From NCBI GenBank assembly GCA_029906195.1, contig JARWSJ010000001.1, forward strand, positions 992,001 through 1,056,000: a stretch of DNA of 64,000 bases, in the 5' to 3' direction. The DNA comes from Chitinophagaceae bacterium 26-R-25 (lineage in GTDB: Bacteria; Bacteroidota; Bacteroidia; Chitinophagales; Chitinophagaceae). Shown in pieces: positions 1,174 to 60,503 of the stretch (positions are counted from its first letter, which is position 1; each line of letters starts with the position of its first letter). A model generated the notes under the pieces. That model ran no database searches. It had not been told where the DNA came from and saw nothing but the letters and a program-made list of their open reading frames with translations. The position numbers and the translations under genes are program-made.

Positions 1174-1234
1174 AACTGAATAACCAAGGTTTGTGAACAC
1201 CTCAGTTATTCAGTTAATCAGTTATTCAGCTATT
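1174..1234. repeat. CTGAATAA-type inverted-repeat element next to the purB stop
   Basis: A short left arm (AACTGAATAACC) faces a longer right arm of CAGTTATTCAG repeats at 1203-1234 across a loop of under 20 bases. The right arm directly adjoins the purB stop. Same arm family as 47424-47585 and 51972-52073. Confidence 0.7.
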
Positions 1235-2579
1235 AAAACGCTGCGCTCACACCAGTGTAATTGTGCGGCGTAATCTTTTTCAATTCTTTCTTCACATCAG
1301 CGCTCACTTTCAGCCCATCAATGAATTTATGCATCACCTGCTTGTTGATTGTTGCATTACCTCGAGTAAGATCTTTCAAAGCCTCGTAAGGTTTTGGATA
1401 ATTTTCACGACGGAGAACAGTTTGTATCGCCTCTGCCACAACCGCCCAGTTATTATCAAGGTCCGCCGCAAGTTTTTGTTCGTTTAGAACCAGTTTGCTC
1501 AAACCTTTTTCAATTGATTTGATCGCGATAATGGTATGCGCAAAAGGCACCCCGATATTTCTTAAAACTGTTGAATCCGTTAAGTCACGCTGCAGGCGGG
1601 AGATAGGTAGTTTGCCCGCAAGATGCTCAAACAATGCATTCGCAATACCCAGGTTTCCTTCGGCATTTTCAAAATCGATCGGGTTTACTTTGTGTGGCAT
1701 TGCAGAAGAACCCACTTCGCCTTTCTTTACTTTCTGCTTGAAGTAATCCATGCTAACATATGTCCAGATATCGCGGCAAAAATCGATCAGGATATTATTG
1801 ATGCGTTTAATGGCATCGAAGTGCGCAGCGAGGTTGTCGTAGTGTTCGATCTGCGTAGTGAATTGTTGTCTTTGCAAACCAAGTCTGTTTTCCACAAAAT
1901 CGTTTCCAAGCACCACCCAGTTCTTTTTCTCAAACGCCACATGATGTGCGTTGAAGTTTCCGGTTGCACCGCCAAATTTTGCGGAAAAAGGCACGTTGAT
2001 CACCTGCTCAACCTGGTTTTGTATTCTTTCCACAAAAACCATCACCTCTTTACCGAGTCGGGTAGGGCTTGCAGGTTGGCCGTGCGTACGCGCCAGCATG
2101 GAAATGTTTTTCCAGCTGTCAGCCAATATTTTCAGTTCGTTATTTAGATTTAAAACAGACGGTAAATATTCAATTTCAATCGCATGTTTCCATGAAAGCG
2201 GAATAGAAGTATTGTTCACGTCTTGTGAAGTCAAGCCAAAGTGAACCCACTCTTTCAGGCTTTCAACACCCGCTTCGTCCAGCTTTGATTTAATGAAATA
2301 CTCGACCGCCTTAACATCGTGATTGGTGATCTTTTCGGTTTCCTTGATCACTTGCGCATCTTCGATACTAAAGTTTTCTGCCACCAGGCGCAAAAAGTTC
2401 TTTGTTTTTGCATTCAGCGAAAAGAATTTCTTATCTGCCAGGAAAATGAAATATTCGATTTCCACGATAACGCGGTATTTCATCAACGCATATTCAGAAA
2501 AATATTCATCTAAATGCTGTACCTGTCTTCTATAGCGGCCATCAACAGGCGAAATGGCAGAAAGCGTATTTAATTCCAT
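1233..2579 (-). CDS. purB: Adenylosuccinate lyase
   Basis: A full-length 448-residue enzyme of the fumarase/aspartase superfamily. PurB cleaves SAICAR to AICAR and adenylosuccinate to AMP, both with release of fumarate, in cytosolic purine synthesis. The superfamily signature GSSAMPHKVNPIDFENAEGN is intact, as is the HFGLTSQDVNNTS segment. The N-terminus MELNTLSAISPVDGRY is typical of E. coli-like PurB, supporting the ATG start at 2579. It is transcribed divergently from mqnA across a 68-base gap, so the two genes share a promoter region. A CTGAATAA inverted-repeat element sits immediately after the stop. Confidence 0.97.
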   Translation of the reverse strand: MELNTLSAISPVDGRYRRQVQHLDEYFSEYALMKYRVIVEIEYFIFLADKKFFSLNAKTKNFLRLVAENFSIEDAQVIKETEKITNHDVKAVEYFIKSKLDEAGVESLKEWVHFGLTSQDVNNTSIPLSWKHAIEIEYLPSVLNLNNELKILADSWKNISMLARTHGQPASPTRLGKEVMVFVERIQNQVEQVINVPFSAKFGGATGNFNAHHVAFEKKNWVVLGNDFVENRLGLQRQQFTTQIEHYDNLAAHFDAIKRINNILIDFCRDIWTYVSMDYFKQKVKKGEVGSSAMPHKVNPIDFENAEGNLGIANALFEHLAGKLPISRLQRDLTDSTVLRNIGVPFAHTIIAIKSIEKGLSKLVLNEQKLAADLDNNWAVVAEAIQTVLRRENYPKPYEALKDLTRGNATINKQVMHKFIDGLKVSADVKKELKKITPHNYTGVSAAF

Positions 2580-2601
2580 GATTTGTTTTAAACAAAAATT
2601 C

Positions 2602-2628
2602 TTGTAATGATTGAGTACTGTACATTTG
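2602..2628 (+). promoter_or_regulatory. Candidate Bacteroidota promoter for mqnA
   Basis: TACATTTG at 2621-2628 fits the -7 consensus TAnnTTTG, and TTG at 2602-2604 lies 16 bases upstream, close to the usual -33 spacing. The mqnA GTG start follows 20 bases later. Confidence 0.4.
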
Positions 2629-2647
2629 CGAAATTAAATCAAACAGA

Positions 2648-3394
2648 GTGGAAAGAAAAATTAGAGTAGGATCTGTTAGCTACCTGAACGCAAAGCCTTT
2701 GCTGTACGGATTCGAGCAGGGCGCTATGAAAGACCAGATAGAGTTAATTACGGAATTTCCGTCCAAAATCGCCACCATGCTGGTGGAGGACAAAATTGAC
2801 ATAGGCCTCGTGCCCGTGGCCATCATTCCAAGGTTAAAAGAATGGCACATTAATACAAATTACTGCATTGGCTGCGACAAACCCGTAGCTTCCGTGTGCA
2901 TTTTCAGTGAAGTGCCCATTCATGAGATCAAAGAAGTACTGTTGGATTACCAGAGCCGCACTTCGGTTAGGCTTGCCCGCATATTGCTGAAAGAATTCTG
3001 GAAAGTGGACCCCGTTCTCACCGATGCCAAAGAAGATTTCCGTGAGCACATCTCCGGAACCACTGCTGGCGTAGTAATCGGCGACCGCGCCCTTGAGCAG
3101 CGCAAAACATCAAAATACATATACGACCTCGGCGAAGCATGGATCCAAATGACAGGTTTGCCCTTCGTGTTCGCAGCCTGGATCAGCAACAAGCAACTCG
3201 ATCCCGCCTTTATAGAAGAATTCAACAAAGCCAATGCCCTCGGCCTCGAGCACCTGGACGAGGTAGTTGCCGAGCATCCCTACACGATTTTCGATTTAAA
3301 AGAATACTATACGGAGCATATCAGCTACGAACTGACGGAACCGAAAAAACGCGGTCTGGAGTTGTTTTTGAGCAAACTGCCGGAGTATTTATAA
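2648..3394 (+). CDS. mqnA: Chorismate dehydratase (futalosine pathway)
   Basis: A 248-residue protein of the MqnA/MqnD periplasmic-binding-protein fold family. MqnA removes water from chorismate to give 3-enolpyruvoyl-benzoate, the first step of the futalosine route to menaquinone. The N-terminal signature RVGSVSYLNAKPLLYG and the segment DIGLVPVAIIP are typical. There is no signal peptide, consistent with a cytosolic enzyme. The start is GTG at 2648; the sequence just before it holds a promoter-like motif rather than coding sequence. Menaquinone is the expected quinone feeding the respiratory chain that ends in the cbb3 oxidase at 14 kb. No other mqn genes are in the window. Confidence 0.92.
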   Translation: MERKIRVGSVSYLNAKPLLYGFEQGAMKDQIELITEFPSKIATMLVEDKIDIGLVPVAIIPRLKEWHINTNYCIGCDKPVASVCIFSEVPIHEIKEVLLDYQSRTSVRLARILLKEFWKVDPVLTDAKEDFREHISGTTAGVVIGDRALEQRKTSKYIYDLGEAWIQMTGLPFVFAAWISNKQLDPAFIEEFNKANALGLEHLDEVVAEHPYTIFDLKEYYTEHISYELTEPKKRGLELFLSKLPEYL

Positions 3395-3548
3395 TTTGAA
3401 AATATGCTAATTTGAAAATTTGAAAATGCTTTGGTGTGCTCTTCATTATTCAATTTAAACACCTTGCTTAGCAAGAATGAATGAATATAATTTCGGAGCT
3501 GCGCTAGTCCATTTTCAAATTTTCAAATCTTCAAATTGTCAAATTTTC
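3395..3548. repeat. TTTGAAAA-type inverted-repeat element between convergent genes
   Basis: The left arm (3395-3427) is tandem AATTTGAAAA; the right arm (about 3511-3548) is its inverse, tandem TTTTCAAATTTTC. The loop is about 80 bases and unrelated. The element lies between convergent mqnA and the M1 peptidase gene and overlaps the peptidase 3' end, so the TGA stop is part of the right arm. Confidence 0.75.
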
Positions 3549-5213: not shown

Positions 5214-5310
5214 GGAACGCAGATTTTCATGATTTTTATGATCCTCATGATTTTTTAAAAGTGTCAGATAAAATCAGAAAAATCATGAGGATCTTGAAAA
5301 TCTGCGTGCC
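5214..5310. repeat. CATGATTTT-type inverted-repeat element
   Basis: The left arm 5214-5256 (starting GGAACGCAGATTTTCATGA) and the right arm 5278-5310 (ending AAAATCTGCGTGCC) are inverted copies with about 20 bases between them. It lies just upstream of the M1 peptidase. A close relative with the same outer ends is at 19232-19412. Confidence 0.8.
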
Positions 5311-8081: not shown

Positions 8082-9794
8082 ATGAAATGGTACATCTGGG
8101 TTTCATTTTCAGTTTTAACTTTCACTGCAGCACTACTAGTTGCCATGCAAAAACCGGTAAATACACCACTAACGATTTCACAAATAAATGAATGGAAAAA
8201 ACGATCGATCGGATGCTCCGGTTTTATAAGCGTGCCGGAAGATTTTTTGCGAAAAACGATAGAAATTAAAACCGGCATTGGTGAATTTAACCTCTCCATC
8301 ACCACCAAAAGCGCCGAAGCCCAGAAGTTTTTCAACCAGGGAATGGCCTACGTTTACAACTTCGAGTATGTACAAAGCGCAAGGTCATTCTATACCGCAC
8401 TACAATATGATACGACAGCAATGATCTACTGGGGCCTGGCAAATGCGTATGATGGTTTGGGGGATACCACCCAGGCAAGAAACATAATAGCAAAGGCATT
8501 TGCTTTGGCAGAGAATTTGACTCCACGCGAAAAGATGTTCATTCAGTTGCAATACGAATCGGATCAACCAGCATGGGACAGTGCGCAGACTCATCGCCAG
8601 AAAGAAAAAATGGAATCACTAATGGACGAGGCGAACTACGAGTTCGCCAACGATGCAGAGATGTGGGCCTTCACCGGCATGTTCAGATTTGACTATCACT
8701 CACCTGACGGCGAAACGGAGGAGCAGGCCAGCAGACATACCATTGATGACTATCTTTTAAAGTCACAGCAACTGCAGTACAATCATTTCGGCGTCTGGCA
8801 CATATTGATCCATGCAAATGAAGGTGCCACAGATTTTAAAAAGGCACTCGAATACGGAGCGATGTACACCAAGGCCGCACCCGCCATTCCTCATGCATGG
8901 CATATGTATGCTCATGATCTCATGAAAACAGGAAGGGTAGAAGAAGCAATTGAGAAATTCACTTATGCATTTAAGCTGGAAGAGCAGAAATACAAAACAG
9001 AAAACATGCCGACACATTACGACTGGCACCATGCGCACAACATGGAATTACTGGCTTATTGCTATCAATATTTGGGTAAATACAAAGATGCTGAACGGAT
9101 TTTCTCAGCGCTTGACACTTTAACTCCTTTCAATGCATATAGAATGGGTCAAATGCGCAAGGGGCATCCTTATTTTCTTATACAAAACAATCGATTGGAT
9201 GAAGCTATTGCGCTGGCGAAAAAACTAAGCGCTACAGGCGAATGGCAAAACAGGGGACATGGGTATCTTATTGAAGGATTGGCAAATGTTTTCAAGGGTA
9301 ACACCGCAGCGGCCAAAAGCTGTTACCAAAAGGGAATCTTTATCATTGATAGCCTCAGGAACGACGATCTGAAAAAAGGAATTCCATTGGCCACGATAGA
9401 AGAGAGGTCGAGCTACGCTTATGCCCGAATGAGCATGATCAAAATGGGAGTCGGACTGCTCGAAAACCCTTATGATACCACGTTTGTCAACCAAATGGAC
9501 CAAATACAGTCCACATTGCTTAGACAAACCGGGCCCGATCCATGGATTGACGCACTGTATTTCATGCAAATGCTCACCCAGTTAAGCTTCAAAACCGGCA
9601 ATCTTGAACTGGCAGAAACATCTGCTAATAACATGATAAAACATGATCCAAATTATCCGGGAACGTATTGGTTACTGGCGCAAATAAAAAACAAACAGGG
9701 AGATGTTGTAAAAGCAAATGAATATTTAGCGAAGGCAAAAACCGGTTACAGCAAAGCCGACAAGGAATTTCTGGATAGATTGAAATTCCCGTAG
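8082..9794 (+). CDS. Exported tetratricopeptide-repeat protein
   Basis: A 570-residue protein with an N-terminal hydrophobic segment (about residues 4-21) that is a signal peptide or anchor. From about residue 65 there are repeated helical pairs with TPR spacing, such as AEAQKFFNQGMAYVYNFEYVQSARSFYTAL, AMIYWGLANAYDGLGDTTQARNII and a C-terminal LAQIKNKQGDVVKANEYLAKA. No CxxCH heme motif or catalytic motif was seen. The family is common and uncharacterised in many bacteria; the role is probably scaffolding in the periplasm, but that is only a guess. The TAG stop is formed by the first bases of a GTAGAGAC element that follows. Confidence 0.75.
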   Translation: MKWYIWVSFSVLTFTAALLVAMQKPVNTPLTISQINEWKKRSIGCSGFISVPEDFLRKTIEIKTGIGEFNLSITTKSAEAQKFFNQGMAYVYNFEYVQSARSFYTALQYDTTAMIYWGLANAYDGLGDTTQARNIIAKAFALAENLTPREKMFIQLQYESDQPAWDSAQTHRQKEKMESLMDEANYEFANDAEMWAFTGMFRFDYHSPDGETEEQASRHTIDDYLLKSQQLQYNHFGVWHILIHANEGATDFKKALEYGAMYTKAAPAIPHAWHMYAHDLMKTGRVEEAIEKFTYAFKLEEQKYKTENMPTHYDWHHAHNMELLAYCYQYLGKYKDAERIFSALDTLTPFNAYRMGQMRKGHPYFLIQNNRLDEAIALAKKLSATGEWQNRGHGYLIEGLANVFKGNTAAAKSCYQKGIFIIDSLRNDDLKKGIPLATIEERSSYAYARMSMIKMGVGLLENPYDTTFVNQMDQIQSTLLRQTGPDPWIDALYFMQMLTQLSFKTGNLELAETSANNMIKHDPNYPGTYWLLAQIKNKQGDVVKANEYLAKAKTGYSKADKEFLDRLKFP

Positions 9795-9973
9795 AGACGC
9801 ATGATAATGCGTCTCCGTAACACCCGAATGATGTTCGTGCCAGAAATGATAATGCGTCTCTGTAACACCCGAATGAATGCAACAACACCCGAATGATGTG
9901 CCCAGAAATGACCGCACCAACACAGGGGCAATTCCCGGAAATGAAAGAGACGCATTTTCATGCGTCTCTACGG
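9791..9973. repeat. Multi-copy GTAGAGAC-family element
   Basis: Begins GTAGAGACGCATGATAATG and ends ATGCGTCTCTACGG. Inside are a partial third palindrome (ATGATAATGCGTCTC at about 9846) and three copies of AACACCCGAATGA with AGAAATGA spacers, suggesting internal tandem duplication of a unit of roughly 50-60 bases. It fills the gap between the TPR gene and the convergent regulator gene. Confidence 0.8.
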
Positions 9974-13601: not shown

Positions 13602-13761
13602 CGTGTGAAGTGTAAGGTGTAAGGTGAGGAGGGTCATTCCGGAGCATAAATTTTAAAGTCAAAAAAATGACATTGCTCCTTTGCTATTGCAACGAAAACA
13701 TCAACCCCTGACCCTAATTTCCCGTTGCGATGCAAAGCCTCACACTTACACCTTATCCCTC
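13602..13761. repeat. GTGTAAGG-type inverted-repeat element
   Basis: Left arm at 13602-13629 (GTGTAAGGTGTAAGGTGAGG) and an inverse arm at about 13737-13761 (CCTCACACTTACACCTTAT), loop about 108 bases. It lies just after ccoI, before the FNR box. Confidence 0.65.
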
Positions 13762-17678: not shown

Positions 17679-17762
17679 TCCAAAGTGAAAAGTAAAAAGT
17701 CCAAAGTAAAAAGCCGCCCATGTCACAAGGTTTTGAATTTTGATTTTTAACTTTTTACTTCA
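17679..17762. repeat. AAAAGTCC-type inverted-repeat element between ccoP and ccoG
   Basis: Left arm 17679-17713 (GTAAAAAGTCCAAAGTAAAA) and inverse right arm 17731-17762 (TTTTTAACTTTTTACTT), loop about 17 bases. It splits the cco cluster between structural and assembly genes. Confidence 0.75.
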
Positions 17763-19231: not shown

Positions 19232-19412
19232 GGAACGCACATTTTCATGATTGTCATGATTTGATAGGATTGAATGAAATCATGTAAAGTCACGACAATT
19301 ATGATCGCTACATTCCAAACAATACTGAGAAAAATGATAAAAAACGGAACAACTATTTTCAGGGGATTAAAAAAACGTGAAAAATCATGACAATCATGAA
19401 AATCTGCGTTCC
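19232..19412. repeat. CATGATTTT-type inverted-repeat element between ccoG and ccoH
   Basis: Left arm 19232-19262 (GGAACGCACATTTTCATGA) and right arm 19380-19412 (ending AAAATCTGCGTTCC) are inverted copies across a loop of about 117 bases. The arms are near-identical to those at 5214-5310, although the loops are unrelated. Confidence 0.8.
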
Positions 19413-20585: not shown

Positions 20586-20705
20586 CAAGTCAAAAGTAAA
20601 AAATAAAAAATCAAAAGGTTTATATACGGAGACTTGGAAGTTTGCCTGACATGCATTGTGTTGCACAGTTTTTGAATTTTGATTTTTTAATTTTTACTTT
20701 TCAAT
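20586..20705. repeat. AAAAGTCAAAA-type inverted-repeat element
   Basis: Left arm at about 20586-20616 (AGTCAAAAGTAAAAAATAAA) and right arm at about 20673-20705 (TTTTGATTTTTTAATTTTTAC), loop about 56 bases. It lies between the SafE-like gene and the kinase gene. Confidence 0.75.
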
Positions 20706-25800: not shown

Positions 25801-26345
25801 AGAATGACCTTGTTACTGCAAAGGACAGCTTGTTGCAAACCATTGCAGAAGTGGAGAGTACTGCGAACCAAAAATTCCTTGACACCTTCAACCAGGTAAA
25901 GGAAAACTTTATTAAAGTATTCAAGGCGTTGTTTACAGAGGAAGACCAGTGTGATCTTATTTTGGAGAACCCTGAAAACCTTGCTGAGACTGCGATCGAT
26001 ATTGTGGCGAAACCAAAAGGTAAACGTCCTTCGTCTATTACTCAGCTGAGTGGTGGTGAAAAGACATTGACAGCAACGGCGTTATTGTTTGCGATTTATT
26101 TGATCAAACCGGCACCGTTCTGTATCCTTGATGAGGTGGATGCTCCGCTGGATGATGCGAACGTTGGTAAATTTACCAACATGATTCGTCGTTTCAGTGA
26201 GGAGAGCCAGTTCATTATTGTTACACACAACAAAATGACGATGAGTGCTGTGGATGTAATTTACGGCGTAACCATGCAGGAGCCGGGTGTTAGCCGCCTT
26301 GTACCTGTTGACTTTAGAGCGTTGAGTGCGCCGGCAAGGCAATGA
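22809..26345 (+). CDS. smc: Chromosome partition protein SMC
   Basis: A full-length SMC ATPase of 1178 residues. Walker A GPNGCGKSN is at 31-39, followed by DSIRWVIGEQ. Two long coiled coils flank a hinge at about 500-660, and the C-terminal head has the signature LSGGEKTLTATALLFA and Walker B FCILDEVDAPLDD. SMC dimers, with ScpA and ScpB, compact and segregate the chromosome; neither scp gene is in the window. The start is GTG at 22809, directly before RLKSLEIKGFKSF, the usual SMC N-terminus. Its TGA stop lies at the edge of a GAATAATT repeat arm. Confidence 0.97.
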   Translation: MRLKSLEIKGFKSFADKTVVNFDENITGIVGPNGCGKSNIIDSIRWVIGEQKISQLRSENLESLVFNGSKTRSASGLAEVSLTFENTRNLLPTEFTTITITRKFYKSGESEYRLNDVSCRLKDIQNLFMDTGVSTDSYSIIELGMVDDLIKDKENSRRRMLEQAAGISIYKTRKKEAKQKLDAAEQDLARIEDLLFEINNQLKSLENQAKKAEKYYEIKKEYRELTIELAKASLEGFNLTYRDLSSQTEEETDKKIQLEAMIAQEEAAIEQEKVGFIEKERALQSMQHEFNDLLQNLRGKENEKNLASQRLNFLTEKITSLEDFLQKSEGQLQGLEESISFTQKQVEEESGKLETLQMQLDDKKDMVDSQRQAFDERRKAVDALRQENQQIQRSQFEAEKRVAIADTSIQNIQRTINQIEEEREARHSQLKQLDEEMSVKEQELETKKTDLQQLQEHHERTKEQILQTQSALEGLRQTLADESRKLDAKKNEHDLLKSLIDSMEGYPESVKFLHKNPNWNHTAPILSDIIYVKEEYRAAVENVLEPYLNYYVVNNLQEGLQAVHLLDANKKGKANFFLLDKLDASEAYTQASLANAIPAIDVIEVDAQYKKLAEHLLGNVFIAENEEVLNNSNGAVVLEKTGKYVKGKYALTGGSVGLFEGKKIGRAKNLEKLRDEIAALETVVSGIKASIQEKHNEVIGFNEQLKENVIKQTQSDINTLTNQVFALQNKIENLHAQQSSSRNRMEEMQQNLESTNGSVSGTREELSALVRQIEEVGMKLMEVEGEYKAAENAYNEANAQYNEFNLSLTRQQSRINSLKQELAFKTNQFNDLKVQIESNASQLKQTSESIAESEETLKNADNGLLDLLRKKEEDEKKLNEADQAFYNLRNQMTEKESLLRSKTKEKDILEHSLSAIKDRLNELKLQLAGMKERLQVEFRINLDDIIDQARNTETPVEELQEKSDRMKKRLENLGEVNPTAIEAFQEMKKRYEFILEQKNDLVTAKDSLLQTIAEVESTANQKFLDTFNQVKENFIKVFKALFTEEDQCDLILENPENLAETAIDIVAKPKGKRPSSITQLSGGEKTLTATALLFAIYLIKPAPFCILDEVDAPLDDANVGKFTNMIRRFSEESQFIIVTHNKMTMSAVDVIYGVTMQEPGVSRLVPVDFRALSAPARQ

Positions 26346-26446
26346 TTGAATAAGTGAATAATTGAATAATTGAGTGGGTGGAGATTGAGCAGGCTTTTTA
26401 TTCCGGTACCTATTATTATTCAATGAATCAATCATTCAATGATTTG
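26345..26446. repeat. TTGAATAA-type inverted-repeat element after smc
   Basis: Left arm 26345-26374 (TTGAATAAGTGAATAATTG) and an imperfect inverse arm at about 26410-26446 (TATTATTATTCAATGAATC). The left arm overlaps the smc stop. Confidence 0.65.
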
Positions 26447-35207: not shown

Positions 35208-35350
35208 GGAAAATTGAAAGTTGAAAATTGAAAATGGGGCTTTGGCGCCAGTTTTTCTAAATAAAAAAGCAGCACAATCGTGCTGCTTTTTTATTTAGAG
35301 ATGCGGATATAGAATCACATTTTCAACTTTCAATTTTCAATTTTCAATTA
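35208..35350. repeat. AATTGAAA-type inverted-repeat element containing a terminator
   Basis: Left arm 35208-35235 (GAAAATTGAAAGTTGAAAA) and right arm 35318-35350 (TTTTCAACTTTCAATTTTC), with a perfect transcription terminator nested in the loop. The right arm reaches the stop of the convergent DinB gene. Confidence 0.8.
35257..35298. terminator. Bidirectional terminator between S41 protease and DinB genes
   Basis: Perfect 18-bp stem at 35257-35274 / 35281-35298 (core AAAAAAGCAGCA / TGCTGCTTTTTT) with a six-base loop. It has A-runs and T-runs on both sides, so it can end both convergent transcripts. Confidence 0.9.
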
Positions 35351-35881: not shown

Positions 35882-36057
35882 ATAATTAAGAATTAGGAAT
35901 TAGGAATTAGGAATTAAGAATTAAGAATTAAGAATTAAGAATTGACAAGTGCGACTCTCTACCAATGACTTCTTGGTTCCATCGCAAGATTGCAGGGGAT
36001 GGTTAGGAACAGCACATAATGAATTCTTAATTCTTAATTTTTAATTCCTAATTCCAA
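35882..36057. repeat. GAATTAGGAATTAAG inverted-repeat element
   Basis: The left arm 35882-35943 has about eight copies of a 7-base unit (AATTAGG / AATTAAG); the right arm 36018-36057 is its inverse (TTAATTCTTAATTTTTAATTC). The loop of about 74 bases is unrelated. It is the clearest example of the simple-repeat design in the window. Confidence 0.85.
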
Positions 36058-37601: not shown

Positions 37602-37728
37602 AAGTTGTTAGTTGATGGTTGTTAGTTGTTGGTAAGTATGATTACACTGTCAGGCTGAGCTTGTCGAAGCCTAAACAATCGGAAATTCTTAATTCTTAAT
37701 TTCTAATTCCTAATTCCTAATTCCTCAG
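37602..37728. repeat. Mixed repeat block between the GMC gene and its small partner
   Basis: A TTGTTAGTTG-type arm (37602-37632), a TCAGGCTGAGCTTGTCGAAG sequence (37650-37672) and a TTCTTAATTCC-type arm (37687-37728). The two arms are of different families and not complementary, so this looks like the remains of two elements. Confidence 0.65.
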
Positions 37729-38179: not shown

Positions 38180-38274
38180 AGTTGAAAATTGAAAGTGGAA
38201 AATTGAAAATGGTATGTGTATTGCATCCAGTGACTTCGACTAACTTTAAATTTTCAATTTTCAACTTTCAATTG
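38180..38274. repeat. AATTGAAA-type inverted-repeat element between convergent genes
   Basis: Left arm 38180-38211 (GTTGAAAATTGAAAGTGG) and right arm 38247-38274 (TTTAAATTTTCAATTTTC). The right arm touches the stop of the barrel protein gene. Confidence 0.8.
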
Positions 38275-39465: not shown

Positions 39466-39529
39466 AAATATTCTTCAGGGTTAATCGAATGTATTGGGTA
39501 ATGAGTTGTGAGTATTGAGTAAACGCTAC

Positions 39530-39590
39530 GCTTCACTTTTAACCTTCCATTTCATTTTCAACTTTCAACTTTCAATTTTCAATTATTTCA
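39530..39590. repeat. Single AATTGAAA-type arm
   Basis: Tandem TTTTCAACTTTCAATTTTC copies end at the stop of the next barrel gene. No matching left arm was seen nearby, so this is half an element. Confidence 0.6.
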
Positions 39591-45099: not shown

Positions 45100-45144
45100 A
45101 GGCTGGGCTTTTATCCTGTGAAAAATTTATAAGAAGTGAGCAAT

Positions 45145-45216
45145 GCCAAATGCTCAACGCTGAACGCTCAACGCAGTTATGATGCATTAGGCGTTAGGCA
45201 TTTGGCGTTATGCGTT
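45145..45216. repeat. GCCAAATGC-type inverted-repeat element
   Basis: Left arm about 45145-45174 (GCCAAATGCTCAACGCTG, then AACGCTCAACGC) and right arm about 45184-45216 (GGCGTTAGGCATTTGGCGTT). A diverged relative of the perfect repeat at 323-378. Confidence 0.75.
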
Positions 45217-45253
45217 ACCACTTACATTAAAGGATGTTTTCGCTCGCCCATTG

Positions 45254-46394: not shown

Positions 46395-47423
46395 ATGTTC
46401 ATTCGTAATGCTTTGCTTTTTTTGCTGACCGCTATTATTTATCTGCCTTCATCGGCTCAGCAAAAAGATTCCATTTTTCTGAACAACGGTCAGATTCTTA
46501 TTGGTAAAATTGAAAACGGTAGCTTGGGCGAAATAAGCATTGACGATGCCGATCTGAAAATGCTAAATGTGAAACTGTACAAAATCAAACGCATCGTAAC
46601 TTTTACCCGTGTTAAAATTGAAATGGTTGACAAACGCATATTTTATGGGGTACTGAAGCCTTCATTAAAACTCAACCATGCCGAAATATTACTGGACGAC
46701 AGTACCACTATGACGGTTCATTTAACGGAGATCAACCAGCTGATTACGCTGGAGAAGAATTTTTTTCAAAGGCTTACAGGTAACTTTTCATTGGGCTTTA
46801 GTTATGCAAAGTCAAGCGGAGTAGGGCAGGCATCCATCAGTGCCCTGGTCCAATACTCAACGCCTTCATTTGAAAATGAGTTGTCCTTATCTTCCATTTC
46901 ATCAATTGATTCATCCCATTTTTCACGTGACCAGGGAAATGTGGCACTCTATTCGGGTTACAATATCACCTCTACAGTGTTTGCGGCAGGCATGCTGCAG
47001 TACCAGCGCAATCTCGAACTATCCATAGCCCGGCGTTACCAGGAAATGCTTGGCGGTGGCATGAAATTTTTTGTACGGGAGAACTGGGAACTGCAGGGGC
47101 TCACCGGACTTGCCATAAACCAGGAAAAGAGCACAGACGACGGAGCACCCTCGGTTGTAACATTGGAAATACCGGTAATGATGCGTTTCAATTTTTTCAA
47201 GTTCCGCCACCCCGATATTCAAATCTCTACCAATCAGGCACTGTACTTCAGTTTGACTGAGAAGGGCCGTGTCCGTTTCGATGGCAGCACAAACTTTTCA
47301 TGGCAGTTAATACGCTATTTCTATCTGAAGGTCAATCCATATACGAACTACGATAGCAAGCCCCCCGCGGGCTCCAGCAATTTTGACTATGGTATGACCG
47401 TAGGGATTTCCTATAAGTTTTAA
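46395..47423 (+). CDS. DUF481-family outer membrane protein
   Basis: 342 residues with a signal peptide (cut near PSSAQQ). The first third (DSIFLNNGQILIGKIENGSLGEISIDDADLKMLNVKLYKIKRI) is a beta-rich domain that precedes the barrel in this family; the rest (SLGFSYAKSSGVGQASISALVQYSTPSFENELSLSSISS...YGMTVGISYKF) matches DUF481, a barrel ending in Phe. Function unknown, sometimes called a salt-induced outer membrane protein. The stop TAA is followed within five bases by a CTGAATAA arm. Confidence 0.87.
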   Translation: MFIRNALLFLLTAIIYLPSSAQQKDSIFLNNGQILIGKIENGSLGEISIDDADLKMLNVKLYKIKRIVTFTRVKIEMVDKRIFYGVLKPSLKLNHAEILLDDSTTMTVHLTEINQLITLEKNFFQRLTGNFSLGFSYAKSSGVGQASISALVQYSTPSFENELSLSSISSIDSSHFSRDQGNVALYSGYNITSTVFAAGMLQYQRNLELSIARRYQEMLGGGMKFFVRENWELQGLTGLAINQEKSTDDGAPSVVTLEIPVMMRFNFFKFRHPDIQISTNQALYFSLTEKGRVRFDGSTNFSWQLIRYFYLKVNPYTNYDSKPPAGSSNFDYGMTVGISYKF

Positions 47424-47585
47424 TGACTGAATAACTGAATAACTGAATAACCGAATAACTGAATAATTGAATAACTGAATAACTGAGGGGAAACTGTTGA
47501 ATAATTTACTTATTGATGCTCGAGGCCTGTTTTGCAAAACTGACCTTCAACCACTCAGTTATTCAGTTTATTCAGTTATTCAGCC
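47424..47585. repeat. CTGAATAA-type inverted-repeat element
   Basis: Left arm 47427-47489 (eight copies of CTGAATAA with variants) and right arm about 47549-47585 (CAGTTATTCAGTTTATTCAG). The loop of about 60 bases is unrelated to other loops. Confidence 0.85.
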
Positions 47586-47681: not shown

Positions 47682-48359
47682 TTGAGTAGCACAAAGAACT
47701 ATCCGTTTCAAAACAAGTCGCTAACTAATATTCGCAATGAGAAATGGAAGGATATTCCCGGATTTGAAGGCATTTACCAGGCTTCAAGTATGGGTAGAGT
47801 TAAATCTCTTGACCGTATCATTTCGCACCCGCGATTAAAAGAGCAATTTGTTGAAGGGAAAATATTAAGCCAGTCGATTGCTGAGAATCGCAACATCAAA
47901 ACCGGTGTTCCCATGGTTGACCTGCGTGTAAGCCTGAGCAGCGAAGGCGCGCAGTACTACTACAACACGAGACGCATTATTTACATCACTTTTATTGATC
48001 CCAATCTTGACTACAGCAAAGATGAATTGTACATCATCAATAAAGATGGTAATGGTTATAACAATCGTCTTAGCAATTTAAAAGCGGTAACAAGAAGTGA
48101 AAAACAAAAGCGTGTATTTGAACGGGGTCGCCACGACACGTATTTAAAAACAGCCGACCGCTCCAAATGGCCCAAAAATTACGGTGGATATACGCGTCGG
48201 AAACCAGTTAAGCAATATCTCAAAGGCAAGCTCATCGCCCGTTACGAAAGCGTTAGCGAAGCTGCAAGACAAACCGGCTGTGACGAAAAGGGAATTATTT
48301 TAACTGCGAAGAATGTGCATCATCAGTGTGGAGGGTTTAAGTGGAAATACAGCAAGTAA
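47682..48359 (+). CDS. NUMOD4/NUMOD1 homing-endonuclease-like protein, HNH core degenerate
   Basis: 225 residues. A NUMOD4 motif (EKWKDIPGFEGIYQASSMGRVKSLDR, about 19-44) is followed by an HNH-like region where the usual VNHIDGNxxNN is IINKDGNGYNN (about 118-128), so the catalytic His is replaced by Asn; the earlier VHRLV segment also lacks His. A NUMOD1 DNA-binding motif closes the protein (KPVKQYLKGKLIARYESVSEAARQTGCDEKGI...GGFKWKYSK). No intron or intein host is apparent, so it is free-standing. It starts at TTG 47682 with no ATG alternative. Possibly a DNA-binding relic. Confidence 0.8.
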   Translation: MSSTKNYPFQNKSLTNIRNEKWKDIPGFEGIYQASSMGRVKSLDRIISHPRLKEQFVEGKILSQSIAENRNIKTGVPMVDLRVSLSSEGAQYYYNTRRIIYITFIDPNLDYSKDELYIINKDGNGYNNRLSNLKAVTRSEKQKRVFERGRHDTYLKTADRSKWPKNYGGYTRRKPVKQYLKGKLIARYESVSEAARQTGCDEKGIILTAKNVHHQCGGFKWKYSK

Positions 48360-48494
48360 TTAATAATTAATAAAGAATAATTAATACGGCAATATTCAAA
48401 ATAGAAGTCGACATCCATCATGTTAAATAGCTAAACAAACTATACCTTAAATGAATGACGCTCTATTAATTATTATATATTAATTATTAATTCG
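48357..48494. repeat. AATTAATAATTAATA-type inverted-repeat element
   Basis: Left arm 48357-48386 (TAATTAATAATTAATAAAG) and right arm about 48464-48494 (CTATTAATTATTATATATT and on), loop about 80 bases. The TAA stop of the NUMOD4 gene is the first repeat base triplet. Confidence 0.8.
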
Positions 48495-48515
48495 AAAAAG
48501 AGACTTCTTGCACAC

Positions 48516-51380: not shown

Positions 51381-51383
51381 GAA

Positions 51384-51490
51384 AGTAAAAAGTCAAAAAT
51401 AAAAAGTCAAAAACTTTAGGTGCAGCCTCGTTATAAACAGCGATGCACCTAAAGTTTTTGATTTTTGCATTTTTATTTTTGACTTGAATC
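51384..51490. repeat. AAAAGTCAAAA-type inverted-repeat element
   Basis: Left arm 51384-51412 (GTAAAAAGTCAAAAATAAAA) and right arm about 51455-51490 (TTTTTGATTTTTGCATTTTT). The loop begins GGTGCAGCCTCGTT, a variant of the loop motif seen in two other elements. Confidence 0.75.
51409..51459 (+). terminator. Strong hairpin after the phosphohexomutase gene
   Basis: Perfect 16-bp stem (AAAAACTTTAGGTGCA / TGCACCTAAAGTTTTT) at 51409-51424 and 51444-51459, with T-run on the 3' side. It likely ends the mutase transcript. Confidence 0.8.
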
Positions 51491-51568
51491 TTTAAGTGTA
51501 ACATTTTGATAACCAACGCAACATTTAAAGCTTTTTAATTTTTACTTTTTAATTTTGCCTTTTAATCC

Positions 51569-51971: not shown

Positions 51972-52073
51972 GACTGAATAACTGAGTAACTGAATAACTG
52001 AAAGCTTCAACGTCGATTTTGCTTTTCAACATACGGACATTCAGTTATTCAGTTACTCAGTTATTCAGTTATT
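51972..52073. repeat. CTGAATAA-type inverted-repeat element
   Basis: Left arm 51972-52002 (ACTGAATAACTGAGTAACTG) and right arm 52039-52073 (TCAGTTATTCAGTTACTCAG), loop about 37 bases. Upstream of the SDR gene. Confidence 0.85.
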
Positions 52074-52137: not shown

Positions 52138-52818
52138 ATGAAGAACATTATTGTAACCGGAGCAAATGGCAACCTTGGCGTTGCTGTGGTAAAAAAAGTA
52201 TTAGCCGATGGCAACAGAGTAATTGCCGTAGGATCATCAGGAAATACATTGGGCTTTGCAAGAGACGACAGCAATTTCGAGCTTCACGATATAGATCTCA
52301 CCAAACATGAGGACGCATGGACATTCAGTGAAACTGTGATCGAAAAATACGGACAAATAGATGGCGCTGCATTGCTTGTTGGTGGTTTTGCTATGAGCAA
52401 TATAAAAGATTTGCAGATTGAAGACATGGAGAAAATGATTCGCCTGAACTTTGCTACTGCATTCAATATAGCCAAGCCATTGTTCAATCACATGTTGGCG
52501 AATAATAATGGTAAAATAGTTTTTGTTGGGGCAAAACCTGCTCTTGAACCGCACATGGCAAAAAACATGATTGCTTACTCATTAAGCAAGTCTCTTTTGT
52601 TCTCTTTCGCAGAAATTTTAAATGCGTCTGCCGAAGGCAAAAATGTAAACACGTCTGTAGTTGTTCCTCAAACCATTGATACACCTCAGAACAGGAAAGA
52701 CATGCCAGATGCCGATTTCAGCAAATGGTCAAAACCAGAAGACATCGCAGAAGTTTTCTCATTCATTTTTAATGAGAAATCGAATGTGGTGAAGCAAGCG
52801 GTTTACAAACTTTATTAA
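52138..52818 (+). CDS. Short-chain dehydrogenase/reductase
   Basis: 226 residues from the ATG at 52138. The dinucleotide-binding start KNIIVTGANGNLGVAVVKK has TGANGNLG in place of TGxxxGxG, as in many SDRs; the active-site pair is YSLSK (Tyr and Lys of YxxxK, about 158-162). It is an oxidoreductase of unknown substrate, probably NAD(P)-dependent. The 22 upstream codons in the same frame come from a repeat arm and are ignored. TAA stop, then an ATTAAGAATT repeat arm. Confidence 0.9.
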   Translation: MKNIIVTGANGNLGVAVVKKVLADGNRVIAVGSSGNTLGFARDDSNFELHDIDLTKHEDAWTFSETVIEKYGQIDGAALLVGGFAMSNIKDLQIEDMEKMIRLNFATAFNIAKPLFNHMLANNNGKIVFVGAKPALEPHMAKNMIAYSLSKSLLFSFAEILNASAEGKNVNTSVVVPQTIDTPQNRKDMPDADFSKWSKPEDIAEVFSFIFNEKSNVVKQAVYKLY

Positions 52819-52958
52819 TTAAGAATTACGAATTAAGAATTAGGAATTGTTTCGGTGCAGCATTGTTTATAAGCATTTATCTTACTTTGTGTCTAGCGAT
52901 AATAAACATGTTTTCGGGCGACCTAATTCCTAATTCCTAATTTCTAATTCCTAATTCC
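52815..52958. repeat. GAATTAGGAATTAAG inverted-repeat element
   Basis: Left arm 52815-52849 (AATTAAGAATTACGAATTAA) and right arm about 52921-52958 (CTAATTCCTAATTCCTAATT), loop about 70 bases. The loop holds GGTGCAGCATTGTT at 52854-52867, directly after the left arm. Confidence 0.85.
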
Positions 52959-52973
52959 TCCCTAAGTTTGCGT

Positions 52974-54761
52974 ATGAAGCAAAAATTAAAAACTGCTTAC
53001 AGTTCTATCTTCACCTATTTGCGGGAAAAGGTGAACCGTGTGCAGTACATAATGATTGTGGCGAGTCTGGTTGGTTTGTGTTCGGGATTGGTAGCGGTGC
53101 TTTTAAAAACGTTTGTACACTATATCGAAAAATGGATCAGCGAAATTCCTGTGTCGCGTTTTTCTTACCTCTTGTTTCCCGGTTTGGGATTGCTGATTAC
53201 GGTAATTATCATCTACAAATTTTATGGTGGCCATATTGAAAAAGGAATAGCAATGGTGCTGCGGTCAATCGCAAGAAGATCGTCTTTTATTCCTTTCAGT
53301 CATACTTACATGCATGTTGTCACAAGCTCCGTCACCGTTGGGTTAGGAGGGTCAGTGGGGCTGGAGGCGCCCATCGTTGCGACAGGTTCGGCTGTTGGTT
53401 CCAATCTTGCACGCATTCATCAACTCAATTACCAGGAAAGAACATTGCTGATAGCGTGTGGTGCTGCGGCCGGTATTGCTGCTGTATTCAATGCGCCGAT
53501 AGCCGGCGTGATATTCGCCATAGAAGTGTTGCTGGCAGAAACGATCATCAGTTATTTTATCCCGTTGATCATATCGGCAGTAATCGGAGCGCTGTGTTCA
53601 AAGATCATTCTGAATGAGGATATTCTTTTCAACTTCGTGCTCAAGCAAACTTTTAATTATTACAATGTTCCGTTTTATATATTGCTTGGTGCGTTGTGCG
53701 GTTTCATTTCTTTGTATTATGCAAATGTGTTTAAAAAAGTAGAGCACAAAATGCACGACTGGCATTTAAATCCCTATGTAAAAGCATTGATCGGCGGATT
53801 GTTCCTGCTGGTCATTTACATTTTATTCCCGACGCTTTTCGGGGAAGGATATGACAGCGTGAAATTGGTGGCAAACGGCGACAGCAACATTATCCACGAC
53901 AATACAAGACTGTTCGCATTGATGAACCACGAGTGGGCGATAATTGTTTTTGTAGGAGCCGTAATGCTGTTAAAGCCAGTCGCTGCCGGTATAACCATCG
54001 GTAGCGGTGGAAACGGCGGAAACTTTGCGCCTTCGCTATTTGTAGGCGCATATCTTGGATTTTTCTTTTCCAGATTATTGAATGCAACAAAATGGTTTGA
54101 TACTCCCGTCGGAAACTTCAGTCTCGTGGGCATGGCGGGTGTGTTGAGTGGTGTAATGTATTGTCCGCTTACGGCGATATTTCTTATCGCTGAAATTACA
54201 AGCGGCTACGAACTCATCATTCCATTGATGATCGTTTCTTCCATGTCATTTTTCATTGTGAAACACTACCAGCCCTATTCTATGGAAACGCGGAAGCTTG
54301 CAATGGAGGGCCAGATTTTTACGCACAAACGTGAGCAGAATATTTTAACGTCTATCCAATTGGACGATATCATTAAGAACAATTACCAAAGCATTTCTAT
54401 CGACAGCTCGTTGCGCGATTTGGTGGAAATGATCAAGCTGAGCGATAAAAACATTTTTGCAGTAGAAGATAAGAAAGGAAATTTTATCGGCATTGTAGAA
54501 CTGAACGATGTAAAAAAGCAAATGTTCAATCCTGAGTTGTTTGACAAAGTGAGCATTCGGCAGATCATGAAGAAAGCTCCGGAGGTCATTTATTCAGGTG
54601 AAAGCATGACACGTGTAATGGAAAAGTTCGATCTCACCCACAGCTGGTATTTGCCGGTGTTATCGGAGGACAGAAAATTTATCGGCTTCATTTCCAAAAC
54701 AAAAATATTCGAACAGTACAGGCAGATTATTTCGGCACAGAGCGATTTATATGACAATTAG
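52974..54761 (+). CDS. ClC-family chloride channel or H+/Cl- antiporter with CBS domains
   Basis: 595 residues. The ClC core (about 30-430) has GLGGSVGLEAPIVATGSAVGSN (GxExP with gating Glu) and GSGGNGGNFAPSLFVGAYLG; a C-terminal pair of CBS domains follows (about 460-590). It probably moves chloride across the inner membrane, with CBS domains sensing nucleotides. I take ATG 52974, not the TTG at 52968. A promoter-like TAAGTTTG lies at 52963-52970, touching the start, so the mRNA may be leaderless or start further in. The TAG stop is formed by a GAATTAGG arm. Confidence 0.9.
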   Translation: MKQKLKTAYSSIFTYLREKVNRVQYIMIVASLVGLCSGLVAVLLKTFVHYIEKWISEIPVSRFSYLLFPGLGLLITVIIIYKFYGGHIEKGIAMVLRSIARRSSFIPFSHTYMHVVTSSVTVGLGGSVGLEAPIVATGSAVGSNLARIHQLNYQERTLLIACGAAAGIAAVFNAPIAGVIFAIEVLLAETIISYFIPLIISAVIGALCSKIILNEDILFNFVLKQTFNYYNVPFYILLGALCGFISLYYANVFKKVEHKMHDWHLNPYVKALIGGLFLLVIYILFPTLFGEGYDSVKLVANGDSNIIHDNTRLFALMNHEWAIIVFVGAVMLLKPVAAGITIGSGGNGGNFAPSLFVGAYLGFFFSRLLNATKWFDTPVGNFSLVGMAGVLSGVMYCPLTAIFLIAEITSGYELIIPLMIVSSMSFFIVKHYQPYSMETRKLAMEGQIFTHKREQNILTSIQLDDIIKNNYQSISIDSSLRDLVEMIKLSDKNIFAVEDKKGNFIGIVELNDVKKQMFNPELFDKVSIRQIMKKAPEVIYSGESMTRVMEKFDLTHSWYLPVLSEDRKFIGFISKTKIFEQYRQIISAQSDLYDN

Positions 54762-54824
54762 GAATTAAGAATTAGGAATTAGGAATTGGTTGCTGTGGTA
54801 CAGTGTAATTGACCATCAGAGACC

Positions 54825-56308: not shown

Positions 56309-56561
56309 GAGAAGAAGTTTTGAGTTCTAAGTTATGAGTTATAAGTTTTGAGTTCTGAGTTCCGGGCAGCAAAACTAAAGGATTGCGCCGTGAAATAGCA
56401 AAGGAAATTTGTCGTTTAAAGTTGGAAACGTTCCCGGGGTGGGAAGTTAAAAGTCAAAAGTAAAAAGTCAAAAAAGTGGTGCAGCATTGTTCCTTGCGGC
56501 GGGGCGATGACATCATAGCCGCCAACTTATGTGATGTATGTGCGAATGAACAGACAAAATT

Positions 56562-58044: not shown

Positions 58045-58088
58045 TATTGATTCTGGGTACTAAATTAACTTTTTTTTGAAATTTTTTA

Positions 58089-58102
58089 TGCAATCGGTTG
58101 CA
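58089..58102. promoter_or_regulatory. Candidate LacI-type operator 2
   Basis: TGCAATCGGTTGCA, a symmetric site with TGCAA/TTGCA arms and CG-centred core, the usual form of LacI-family operators, between the regulator and the GH3 gene. Confidence 0.65.
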
Positions 58103-58219
58103 AATACAAAAAAAATTATGATATTAGCATTGTGTTAATGTCAAATGTGTCTCGCCAAAACGAAAAAAGACACTAAACGAGAGGTTGCTTTTTCAGCTAT
58201 AAGACCATTTATAAGCCAT

Positions 58220-60412
58220 ATGAAGAGAAGATTCTGCATAACTGCGTTCGGAATTTTTACAGCTGTTTCGATGCTCCAGGCACAGACCAGCAAGCCTGTT
58301 TATTTAGACATTAACAAAGCCCGCGAGGTTCGTGTGCAGGACCTGTTAAAGAGAATGACGCTGGAAGAGAAAGTGAGCCAGATGATGAACAGCAATTCCG
58401 CAATTCCCCGCCTTCAAATTCCCGAATACAACTGGTGGAACGAAAGTTTACATGGTGTGGCCCGTTCAGGAGTTGCAACCGTTTTTCCGCAGGCAATTGG
58501 CCTGAGTGCAACATTTGATGACAATCTGGCTTTAAAAGTATCTACTGCCATTTCAGACGAGGCCCGTGCTATATATAATGTGTCAATAGCAAAAGGCTAT
58601 CGTCAGAAATACGCAGGCCTCACTTTCTGGACACCAAACATTAATATATTCCGCGACCCAAGATGGGGGCGTGGCCAGGAAACTTACGGAGAAGATCCGT
58701 TCCTTACTTCAAGAATCGGTGTTGCTTTTGTAAAAGGTTTGCAGGGCAATGATCCTGACTATTTAAAAGTGGCCGCTTGTGCCAAACACTACGCAGTACA
58801 TAGCGGACCGGAAAGACTGCGTCATGAATTTGATGCAAAGGCTTCCATGAAGGATATGCGTGAAACTTATCTGCATGCTTTCAAAGCATTGGTAACAGAG
58901 GCGCACGTTGAAGCGGTAATGTGTGCTTATAACAGAACCAATAGTGAAGTGTGCTGCGGCAATACATTCTTATTGCAGGATGTGTTGAGAGATGAGTGGA
59001 AATTCAAGGGACATGTGGTTTCCGATTGCGGCGCCATAGAAGATTTTTACAAAGGACATAAAGTTGTAGCCAACAGCGCGGAAGCTGCTGCCCTTGCGGT
59101 TAAACGTGGGGTGAGTCTTGATTGCGGGGGTGAATATGCTTCACTGATTGATGCAGTAAAACAAAAATTAATTACAGAAAAAGAGATCGATAGCGCACTT
59201 GCCATTTTGCTTCGCACAAAAATGAAGCTGGGTATTTTTGATCCTGCTTCTTCAAATCCTTACAGCAAAATTTCTGCAAACGCTATTAATAGCGCGGAAC
59301 ACAGAGCATTGTCAAAAGAAGTAGCGCTGAAATCAATTGTGTTGCTGAAAAACAACGGAGCGCTTCCTTTAAAAACTGATCTAAAAAAATATTTCGTAAC
59401 CGGGCCAAACGCAGCAGATATAATGTCTCTGATCGGTAACTATTATGGAGTAAATCCACAGATGGTTACGTACATGGAAGGCATTGCTTCGCATATTTCT
59501 CCTGAAAGCCAAATGCAGTACAGGCCTGGTTGTTTGCTGGACAGAAACAATATCAATCCTATTGACTGGACAACTGATGAAGCAAGAAACACAGACGCAA
59601 CAATTGTTGTGTTGGGTATTAACGGATTGATCGAAGGTGAAGAAGGCGAGTCTATTGCTTCTCCATCTTTTGGTGACAGACTTGATTATAACATTCCTCA
59701 AAACCAGATTGAGTTTTTGAGAAAAATGAAAAAAGATAATCCCAAACCTATAATAGCCATAATTACAGGAGGATCTCCTATGAACCTTTCTGAAATTCAT
59801 GATTTGGCCGATGCTGTATTACTCGCATGGTATCCCGGCGAGGAAGGCGGAAATGCAGTGGCAGACATCATTTTCGGTAAAGTTTCTCCTTCCGGAAAAT
59901 TGCCTGTTACTTTTCCAAAATCTTTGCAACAGTTACCAACATACGAAGATTATAGTTTGAAGGGCAGGACCTACCGCTACATGACCGAAGAGCCAATGTA
60001 TCCTTTCGGTTATGGTTTAACGTACTCAAAATTTGATTACGGTACCTTGAAAACATCTACGCAAAACGTAAAGAAAGGTCAGCCGATGACAGTTGAAACA
60101 ACTGTTACAAACAAAGGCAAGACTGCATCTGACGAAGTGATCCAATTGTATATCTCTCATCAGGGTGCTGGTGAAAACGAGCCGTTGTACAGCCTGAAAG
60201 GTTTCACAAGAATCAACCTGGCGGCGGGCGCATCAAAAGTGGTGAAGTTTACCGTAACACCAGATATGTTATCCCTTGTAAACGATAACGGCGAAACCCT
60301 TGAAACAACTGGTAAAGTGACTTTCTATGTAGGAGGTTCTTCACCAATGCAAAGAAGTGAGACGTTGGGAATTGCTAAACCGGCAGCAGGGAATGTTGCA
60401 ATAGTCGAATAA
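58220..60412 (+). CDS. Glycoside hydrolase family 3, probable beta-xylosidase or beta-glucosidase
   Basis: 730 residues from ATG 58220, giving signal peptide MKRRFCITAFGIFTAVSMLQA. The catalytic nucleophile Asp269 is in VVSDCGAI. The (alpha/beta)8 N-domain has FWTPNINIFRDPRWGRGQETYGEDPFLTSRIG and AACAKHYAVHSGPE; the C-terminal domain includes the GH3 C-domain and a fibronectin-like end (VEVTTTVTNKGKTASDEVIQLYISH-like). The subfamily resembles xylan 1,4-beta-xylosidases of Bacteroidota. It is exported and likely acts in the periplasm. TAA is followed at once by an AATTGAAA arm. Divergent from the LacI gene. Confidence 0.92.
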   Translation: MKRRFCITAFGIFTAVSMLQAQTSKPVYLDINKAREVRVQDLLKRMTLEEKVSQMMNSNSAIPRLQIPEYNWWNESLHGVARSGVATVFPQAIGLSATFDDNLALKVSTAISDEARAIYNVSIAKGYRQKYAGLTFWTPNINIFRDPRWGRGQETYGEDPFLTSRIGVAFVKGLQGNDPDYLKVAACAKHYAVHSGPERLRHEFDAKASMKDMRETYLHAFKALVTEAHVEAVMCAYNRTNSEVCCGNTFLLQDVLRDEWKFKGHVVSDCGAIEDFYKGHKVVANSAEAAALAVKRGVSLDCGGEYASLIDAVKQKLITEKEIDSALAILLRTKMKLGIFDPASSNPYSKISANAINSAEHRALSKEVALKSIVLLKNNGALPLKTDLKKYFVTGPNAADIMSLIGNYYGVNPQMVTYMEGIASHISPESQMQYRPGCLLDRNNINPIDWTTDEARNTDATIVVLGINGLIEGEEGESIASPSFGDRLDYNIPQNQIEFLRKMKKDNPKPIIAIITGGSPMNLSEIHDLADAVLLAWYPGEEGGNAVADIIFGKVSPSGKLPVTFPKSLQQLPTYEDYSLKGRTYRYMTEEPMYPFGYGLTYSKFDYGTLKTSTQNVKKGQPMTVETTVTNKGKTASDEVIQLYISHQGAGENEPLYSLKGFTRINLAAGASKVVKFTVTPDMLSLVNDNGETLETTGKVTFYVGGSSPMQRSETLGIAKPAAGNVAIVE

Positions 60413-60503
60413 TTGAAAATTGAAAGTTGAAAATTGAAAATTATTGATAGTTGTTAGAATGTACCATACAAAGGCTAACAACTATCAACTAACAACTAAC
60501 AAC
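60412..60503. repeat. AATTGAAA and TTGTTAG repeat block
   Basis: An AATTGAAA-type left arm (60412-60442) merges into TGATAGTTGTTAG (60445-60457), which pairs perfectly with CTAACAACTATCA (60474-60486), then further AACTAACAAC copies to about 60503. Loop 16 bases. Confidence 0.75.

Follow-up and report, generated by a model that had tools for sequence, protein, structure and literature searches.

What are the paired tandem arrays that lie between genes in a 64,000-nucleotide stretch of the Chitinophagaceae bacterium 26-R-25 genome (GCA_029906195.1, contig JARWSJ010000001.1, positions 992,001 to 1,056,000; G000:C1:992001-1056000 in our numbering and hereafter the window)? The original prediction, made from the letters of the window, described at least 15 gaps with two arms, each of several near-copies of a 7-8 base unit, inverted with respect to each other around variable loops, and proposed either a process that copies one arm into the other or selection on a long hairpin. 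We give about an even chance to the reading that these are dispersed 3′-end hairpin elements resembling dimers of repetitive extragenic palindromes (REPs), which would have spread as units and been retained as hairpins that end or protect transcripts. They are a many-word form of a repeat type already reported in a few other bacteria. The genome (G000; 6.51 Mb, 6 contigs) was compared with two congeneric, syntenic genomes, G001 and G002, whose aligned blocks share about 75-96% and 80-95% nucleotide identity with it; the sampled sequence was 1.2 Mb of G000 and 0.6 Mb each of G001 and G002. A phosphomannomutase-like protein encoded in the window has relatives that likewise indicate Chitinophagaceae (Bacteroidota).

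Arrays were detected as self-matches at fixed lags, with a strict cut-off at a score of 11 or more and a looser score, and two arrays within 300 bases were scored as an inverted or a direct pair. Gene boundaries were open reading frame (ORF) calls made in this analysis, and word families were named by hand from the detected pairs. At the strict cut-off, 400 kb contained 98 period-7 and 30 period-8 arrays, compared with 0 and 0 in a second-order Markov sequence, and periods 5, 6, 9 and 10 yielded 1, 1, 3 and 0. The looser score gave 59 arrays at lag 9 versus 16 in the Markov control; the predicted 7-8 base units do dominate, and units of 9 bases are present less often. Inverted pairs numbered 65 in 400 kb at the looser threshold and direct pairs 4 (Markov control, 0 and 0). 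The 1.2 Mb of G000 held 230 inverted versus 16 direct pairs, the G001 sample 57 and 8 and the G002 sample 102 and 8, and the same detector returned 0 inverted and 0 direct pairs from 50 kb of E. coli. Three tandem copies of AATTGAA (at most 2 mismatches, overlapping places counted) matched the whole genome 483 times on the + and 483 times on the − strand, and the reversed pattern 5 and 2 times. The paired arrays are real and genome-wide, with the complementary arms and variable loops that had been foreseen; their period spectrum, the Markov control and the E. coli result rule out low-complexity chance as their origin.

Elements are typically about 80-170 bp long, and 186 non-overlapping ones with loops of 25-250 bases (median 71) were counted in 1.2 Mb. 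Four of 133 pairs fell inside called ORFs. Across the three samples, 327 of 1240 gaps measuring 40-600 bp carried elements, including 202 of 783 tandem and 82 of 232 convergent ones. Where adjacent labelled arrays were separated by 3-249 bases, they stood in left-right order with the same word in 278 cases and with different words in 56 (three genomes), so the statement that both arms always belong to one family does not hold (56 of 334, with some nested elements). The other orders were rarer: right-left 3, left-left 19 and right-right 34. Five left-right pairs were more widely spaced (311-2239 bases) and had words that agree in the initial four letters; these are candidate autonomous elements.

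The arms are oriented relative to the gene that they adjoin. Of the 412 arrays that lay no more than 15 bases from a stop codon in the three genomes, 408 showed the left-form reading in the gene's sense. Stop-adjacent arrays in no detected inverted pair had the same orientation in 132 of 135 cases, a count that used, like the orthologous-gap tally below, a longer word list than the first. Because these unpaired arrays obey it, the orientation rule is independent of detected pairing; a decayed partner below the detection threshold is possible for them. For the 38 units in our table of pairs, the opposite reading appeared 0 times as a left arm and once, in one unit, as a right arm. Left arms favour A over T and G over C, and this composition goes along with orientation. 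Stop codons themselves were rejected as the cause of the polarity: for period-7 and period-8 arms, their density was 0.149 in the left reading versus 0.057 in the right, and it stayed at 0.136 after letters were permuted within units, so the stop-codon content is mostly a by-product of composition. A U-tract logic was likewise rejected, as ATGATTTTC and AGTTGTT arms have, by eye, no T-rich right arm.

The elements are also anchored at stop codons. Of 363 arm edges within −40 to +60 of a stop, 230 lay at −12 to +4, and in 168 tandem gaps with slack the median stop-side share of that slack was 0.074 (92 below 0.1, 8 above 0.9). Stop-codon usage differed by arm word (chi2 53, p 4e-7): TAG adjoined AATTARG in 23 of 44 cases, TGA adjoined AATTTGAA in 15 of 34 and TAA adjoined AAAAGTC in 23 of 31, compared with overall shares of 0.28 for TAG, 0.22 for TGA and 0.50 for TAA. 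Since arm edges cluster at stops and stop usage varies with arm family, the elements often, although not always, supply the stop codon. At window gap 48360-48515, AAG is followed by TAA, TAG and TAA in G000, G001 and G002, with AATTAAT, AATTAGG and AATTAAG arms, respectively.

We then considered the elements as hairpins. Eight whole elements from the window folded as RNA with z from −2.7 to −12.5; one arm folded alone gave −1.1 kcal/mol (z −0.6). In the 57 of 154 compared elements that were chosen by loop similarity, identity was 0.853 in arms, 0.736 in loops and 0.885 in the coding flank. Gapped sites in these 57 numbered 385 in arms versus 122 in loops, so arms gain and lose units, and a tandem arm would still pair after such a change. 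Classical terminators were found in 26 of 82 occupied convergent gaps versus 71 of 150 unoccupied ones. Position, folding and these terminator counts make transcript termination by the elements plausible. A scan with Rfam models at gathering scores returned tRNA alone.

Comparison of orthologous gaps, which had been suggested as a check, revealed both retention and turnover. The 458 gap pairs, drawn from three pairwise and therefore not independent comparisons among the three genomes, comprised 73 with the same word, 33 with different words, 96 occupied in just one of the two genomes and 256 empty in both. Presence/absence differences and retained words were thus both seen, but where both gaps were occupied the word differed in 33 of 106 (the count was 48 before AATTARG was merged with AATTAAT). 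The change of word extends to the stop codon. Gaps with different arms (23) had an identity of 0.78 over the last 30 coding bases and 0.41 over the 20 bases past the stop, and kept the stop in a fraction of 0.52; the corresponding values were 0.81, 0.71 and 0.71 for similar-arm gaps (31) and 0.82, 0.59 and 0.78 for element-free gaps (90). By eye, one G000 element sits mid-way in a terminator-like hairpin whose G002 counterpart is uninterrupted. An AATTARG element in G002, orthologous to G000 sample position 270994, carries in its right arm an insert whose ends read AATGTCGTTTAGTTAAG / CTTAACTAAACGGCATT.

Whole copies are dispersed as well. Of the 186 loops, 34 had a copy elsewhere in the 1.2 Mb (hit over at least 70% of the length, 67-95% identity), all beside arrays, and shuffled loops had 0. 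Copies of CACTAAGG form a whole-element subfamily at scattered loci. Both sets are dispersed similar copies with terminal inverted repeats, as in miniature inverted-repeat transposable elements (MITEs).

Related arrays reach beyond the genus. Of 395 Bacteroidota genomes, 35, from 27 of 171 genera, contained AATTAGG arrays (control 0), and 5 contained CACTAAGG. Three tandem AATTGAA copies had 183-483 matches per strand in the genus's three genomes and at most 7 in 26 other relatives. Only 7 of 20 regions from other genera, all picked for an AATTAGG hit, held any inverted pair (23 inverted and 17 direct in all, most in locus L276), so many such arrays in other genera have no detected partner. 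The five AATTAGG-type pairs from other genera all had the polarity seen in G000. AT-rich AATTAGG-type arms in a region of 63% GC (L262, genome G192) suggest transfer or a strong constraint on the word. In Niastella populi (L056), two CTGAATAA-like pairs were reversed relative to G000, so polarity looks lineage-inherited; AATTAGG-type pairs in other genera are, however, oriented as here. Loci fetched for other reasons (0.99 Mb) contained 27 inverted and 11 direct pairs, with 5 of the inverted ones in L005-L007 from this genus and the rest made of other words.

On the reading that we place at about even, each arm repeats a 7-9 base word several times, reading inward from the stop codon of the adjoining gene, and the facing arm usually repeats that word on the complementary strand. 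Copies would have spread as units, by some mobilising activity, into the 3′ ends of genes and into terminator hairpins already present. They would be retained because, whichever strand is transcribed, the RNA folds into a long hairpin immediately after the stop, ending or protecting the mRNA; judged from sequence, the elements possibly act as terminators. If this is true, a large share of the genus's intergenic gaps (the 327 of 1240) consists of fast-replaced elements in which the stop codon, and perhaps the terminator, is often included. The genus would then make it practicable to study how a genome exchanges its 3′-end signals again and again, and the long-unexplained bacterial heptamer repeats would become testable across close species.

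Several results weigh against this account. Most loops (152 of 186) had no such copy in the 1.2 Mb searched, so copying as a unit is unsupported for most elements. We detected no target-site duplication (mean longest flanking match 3.694 vs 3.702 re-paired, n = 385), and no mobilising enzyme was found in a search that covered Y1_Tnp (PF01797) only, other transposase types not being searched. Elements also occupy divergent gaps (43 of 225), classical terminators in tandem gaps are not depleted (37 of 202 occupied vs 104 of 581 unoccupied), and stops beside AATTGAA, a word that contains TGA, are near background (15 TAG, 17 TAA and 9 TGA of 41). The strand-symmetric covariation expected of a selected hairpin was not robust: paired double changes in the loop-selected set were 27 of 1124 in register vs 62 of 2667 shifted by one or two units, although the arm-selected set gave 24 of 1068 vs 24 of 2470 shifted. 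The case for selection on a long hairpin is mixed: the arm identity (85% vs 74% in loops) and the folding speak for it, the failed shift control and an orientation that holds without a detected pair against it.

The alternative that survives best, although we consider it unlikely, is that simple sequence repeats (SSRs) expanded locally by slippage and never moved, their inverted arms being maintained solely because a 3′ hairpin is selected for. It is favoured by at least four cases in which orthologues differ in the number of units but retain the loop, by G000 sample position 933332, where by eye the left arm differs between G000 and G002 and the loop and right arm are alike, and by the majority of loops that have no full-length copy. 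Against growth in place stand whole-element subfamilies at scattered loci, occupied versus empty orthologous gaps, and the recurrence of the AATTAGG word in 35 of 395 genomes of the phylum (control 0), with the same polarity in all 5 pairs of its type from the 20 chosen regions, one of them in a 63% GC genome.

A bolder proposal is that an active, undescribed Bacteroidota system writes word-specific, strand-oriented arrays onto gene 3′ ends from the stop codon and can overwrite their words. It is prompted by the orientation of arrays with no detected partner (132 of 135), by stop codons that change with the word and by stop-to-stop gaps that hold different elements across species, which a single hairpin insertion does not readily explain. 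We regard such a system as rather improbable, somewhat more so than slippage.

Intergenic heptamer repeats have known forms. The cyanobacterial short tandemly repeated repetitive sequences (STRRs) are mostly single arrays of a few words, and the cyanobacterial STRR word CCCCAAT had 0 and 0 matches in this genome. The elements described here are likewise tandem 7-base intergenic units in many copies, although periods of 8 and 9 also occur. STRRs are intergenic 7-bp repeats able to form hairpins (Mazel 1990; Jackman and Mulligan 1995, cited in PMC2670836). The closest precedent is the GGGAATC heptamer of Xanthomonas, which has the same layout of inverted heptamer pairs near stop codons (Rehm et al. 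2015, PMC4692102); transcripts begin or end more frequently at its G-quadruplex (G4)-forming repeats. That heptamer is one G-rich word discussed as a G-quadruplex, whereas the elements here use many words, for the most part AT-rich and 7, 8 or 9 bases long, with word switching at orthologous sites and mixed pairs. We found no report of inverted heptamer pairs in Bacteroidota among the matches listed, in a search outside which most subscription journals lie. New relative to these precedents are the many words, the stop-anchored orientation independent of detected pairing and the word switching between orthologous gaps.

REP dimers offer a second comparison, and with it the possibility that these are canonical REPs, REP doublets forming hairpins (REPINs) or MITEs mobilised by REP-associated tyrosine transposases (RAYTs). 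REP dimers are head-to-head inverted units with variable spacers, many of them 3′ of coding regions, some supplying TAG stops and some hybrid (PMC3733652), and this layout, shared with bacterial interspersed mosaic elements (BIMEs) and REPINs, is close to what we see. A REP unit, however, is one palindrome tagged with GTAG or CGTC, and the GTAG kind can have a RAYT (PMC3733652), whereas here tandem words carry neither tag and no known transposase. The prediction that the arms are unlike standard REPs was borne out: GTAG was not enriched at outer (0.074 vs 0.077 shuffled) or inner ends (0.036 vs 0.057), and neither was CGTC (0.006 vs 0.015 and 0.022 vs 0.020). Target duplication was also not found, and the single arm that was folded by itself seemed not to form a structure of its own (z −0.6). 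A RAYT link was rejected, since 1 of 10 Y1_Tnp loci in the three genomes was flanked on both sides by elements within 500 bases vs 55 of 762 other genes under 300 aa. That sole case, L285 (G001:C10:54101-60500), is a 179-aa Y1_Tnp ORF between AATTTGAA elements at −7 and 427 bases. GTAG-tagged dimers, moreover, exist beside the heptamer elements in the same genome. Canonical mobilisation is accordingly improbable in our judgement.

To the same low degree we credit arrays that bind an RNA- or DNA-binding regulator, as proposed for the TAACTGA repeats of Beggiatoaceae (MacGregor 2015, PMC4679880), which are intergenic heptamers that also occur in five Bacteroidetes. The near-constant spacing of 7-9 bases and the resemblance of the CTGAATAA word to TAACTGA speak for binding, but one position can be filled by many different words, which are exchanged between orthologues, and the arrays lie at stop codons, not just before starts. 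TAACTGA repeats are nearly all direct and, in the genome on which that study centred, mostly lie immediately 5′ of start codons; here the arrays are inverted and at stops. Copying of one arm into the other by replication or repair is the least credible reading, very improbable given that arms of one element are not significantly more alike within a family than arms of different elements (0.823 vs 0.817; 126 of 2000 permutations reach the observed value) and that 56 pairs are mixed. Unit variants significantly shared by both arms in the CTGAATAA and AATTARG families speak for copying, but the three others of the five families tested show no such sharing.

In the window, 18 inverted array pairs were called. 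They recovered 12 of the 15 predicted coordinates (3395, 17679, 20586, 32732, 35208, 35882, 38180, 47424, 48357, 51384, 51972 and 52815) and added six (313, 5222, 19241, 26341, 45142 and 56316, the last weak). Three predicted sites were not recovered as pairs. At 1174-1234, a one-unit left arm CTGAATAA precedes a right array at 1202-1234; at 13603-13757, a left array GTGTAAG (13603-13626) faces a weak, degenerate right arm near 13740-13757; and at 60411-60503 there are two words, a left array AATTGAA (60411-60442) and a right array AACAACT (60475-60503). Two other mixed pairs combine a left array GTTGTTA (37603-37633) with a right array AATTARG (37684-37725) and, by eye, a GTATTGA-like left array (39491-39521) with AATTGAA (39556-39584), spanning 37603-37725 and 39491-39584.

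Two elements lie between convergent ORF ends. The first, 3393-3548 (arms 3393-3427 / 3511-3548; period 8, AATTTGAA), has an RNA z of −5.7, and the second, 35209-35349 (arms 35209-35235 / 35321-35349; AATTGAA), has a terminator-like hairpin in its loop and a z of −12.5. AATTGAA also forms 38182-38271 (arms 38182-38210 / 38242-38271; z −4.5). AATTARG makes up 35884-36055, with a left arm at about 35884-35943 (eight-plus units) and a right arm at 36022-36055, where the G001 gap has AATTAAT arms and a different loop, and 52817-52959 (arms 52817-52848 / 52922-52959; z −4.7). Conversely, 48357-48492 (arms 48357-48386 / 48464-48492) is built of AATTAAT and has AATTARG arms in G001 and G002. The CTGAATAA elements, both of period 8, span 47422-47583 (arms 47422-47486 / 47555-47583) and 51973-52073 (arms 51973-52002 / 52039-52073; z −9.9).

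Elements of period 7 include 313-393 (arms 313-345 / 355-393; AACGCTA), 45142-45217 (arms 45142-45174 / 45184-45217; AACGCTC), 32729-32860 (arms 32729-32750 / 32833-32860; GTAGCCG), 17682-17760 (arms 17682-17713 / 17731-17760; AAAGTAA), which the orthologous gap in G002 lacks, and 20587-20701 (arms 20587-20616 / 20670-20701; AAGTCAA), where the same gap in G001 holds a AATTTGAA element. The AAAAGTC element at 51382-51556 has a left arm at 51382-51412, a near right arm at 51455-51482 and a second right array at 51532-51556. Period 8 AATAATTG forms 26341-26444 (arms 26341-26373 / 26420-26444), and period 9 is represented by 5222-5303 (arms 5222-5251 / 5270-5303; GATTTTCAT) and 19241-19404 (arms 19241-19261 / 19383-19404; ATTTTCATG). 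Doubtful is 56316-56473, with arrays AGTTCTG (56316-56362) and AAAAGTC-like (56444-56473), an inverted score of 14 and a direct score of 10. An AATTAGG array on the + strand at 54756-54787 overlaps the end of ORF 52968-54761, and no partner was detected for it.

Other repeats are found nearby. GTAG-tagged REP-like dimers coexist with the elements at window positions 1041-1156, 9791-9971 and 27813-27931, with the form GTAGAGACGC ... GCGTCTCTAC, or GCGTTTCTAC in 1041-1156; within 200 bases, such units form 6 forward-then-reverse pairs and 0 reverse-then-forward pairs in 1.2 Mb. A palindrome family, CTTCGACAAGCTCAG, occurs at window positions 37655 and 56894 and in G000:C1 near 1631404, 1701324 and 1645753. 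At the last three of these places it lies inside the loops of AATTTGAA elements, as if hairpin loops attracted further insertions.

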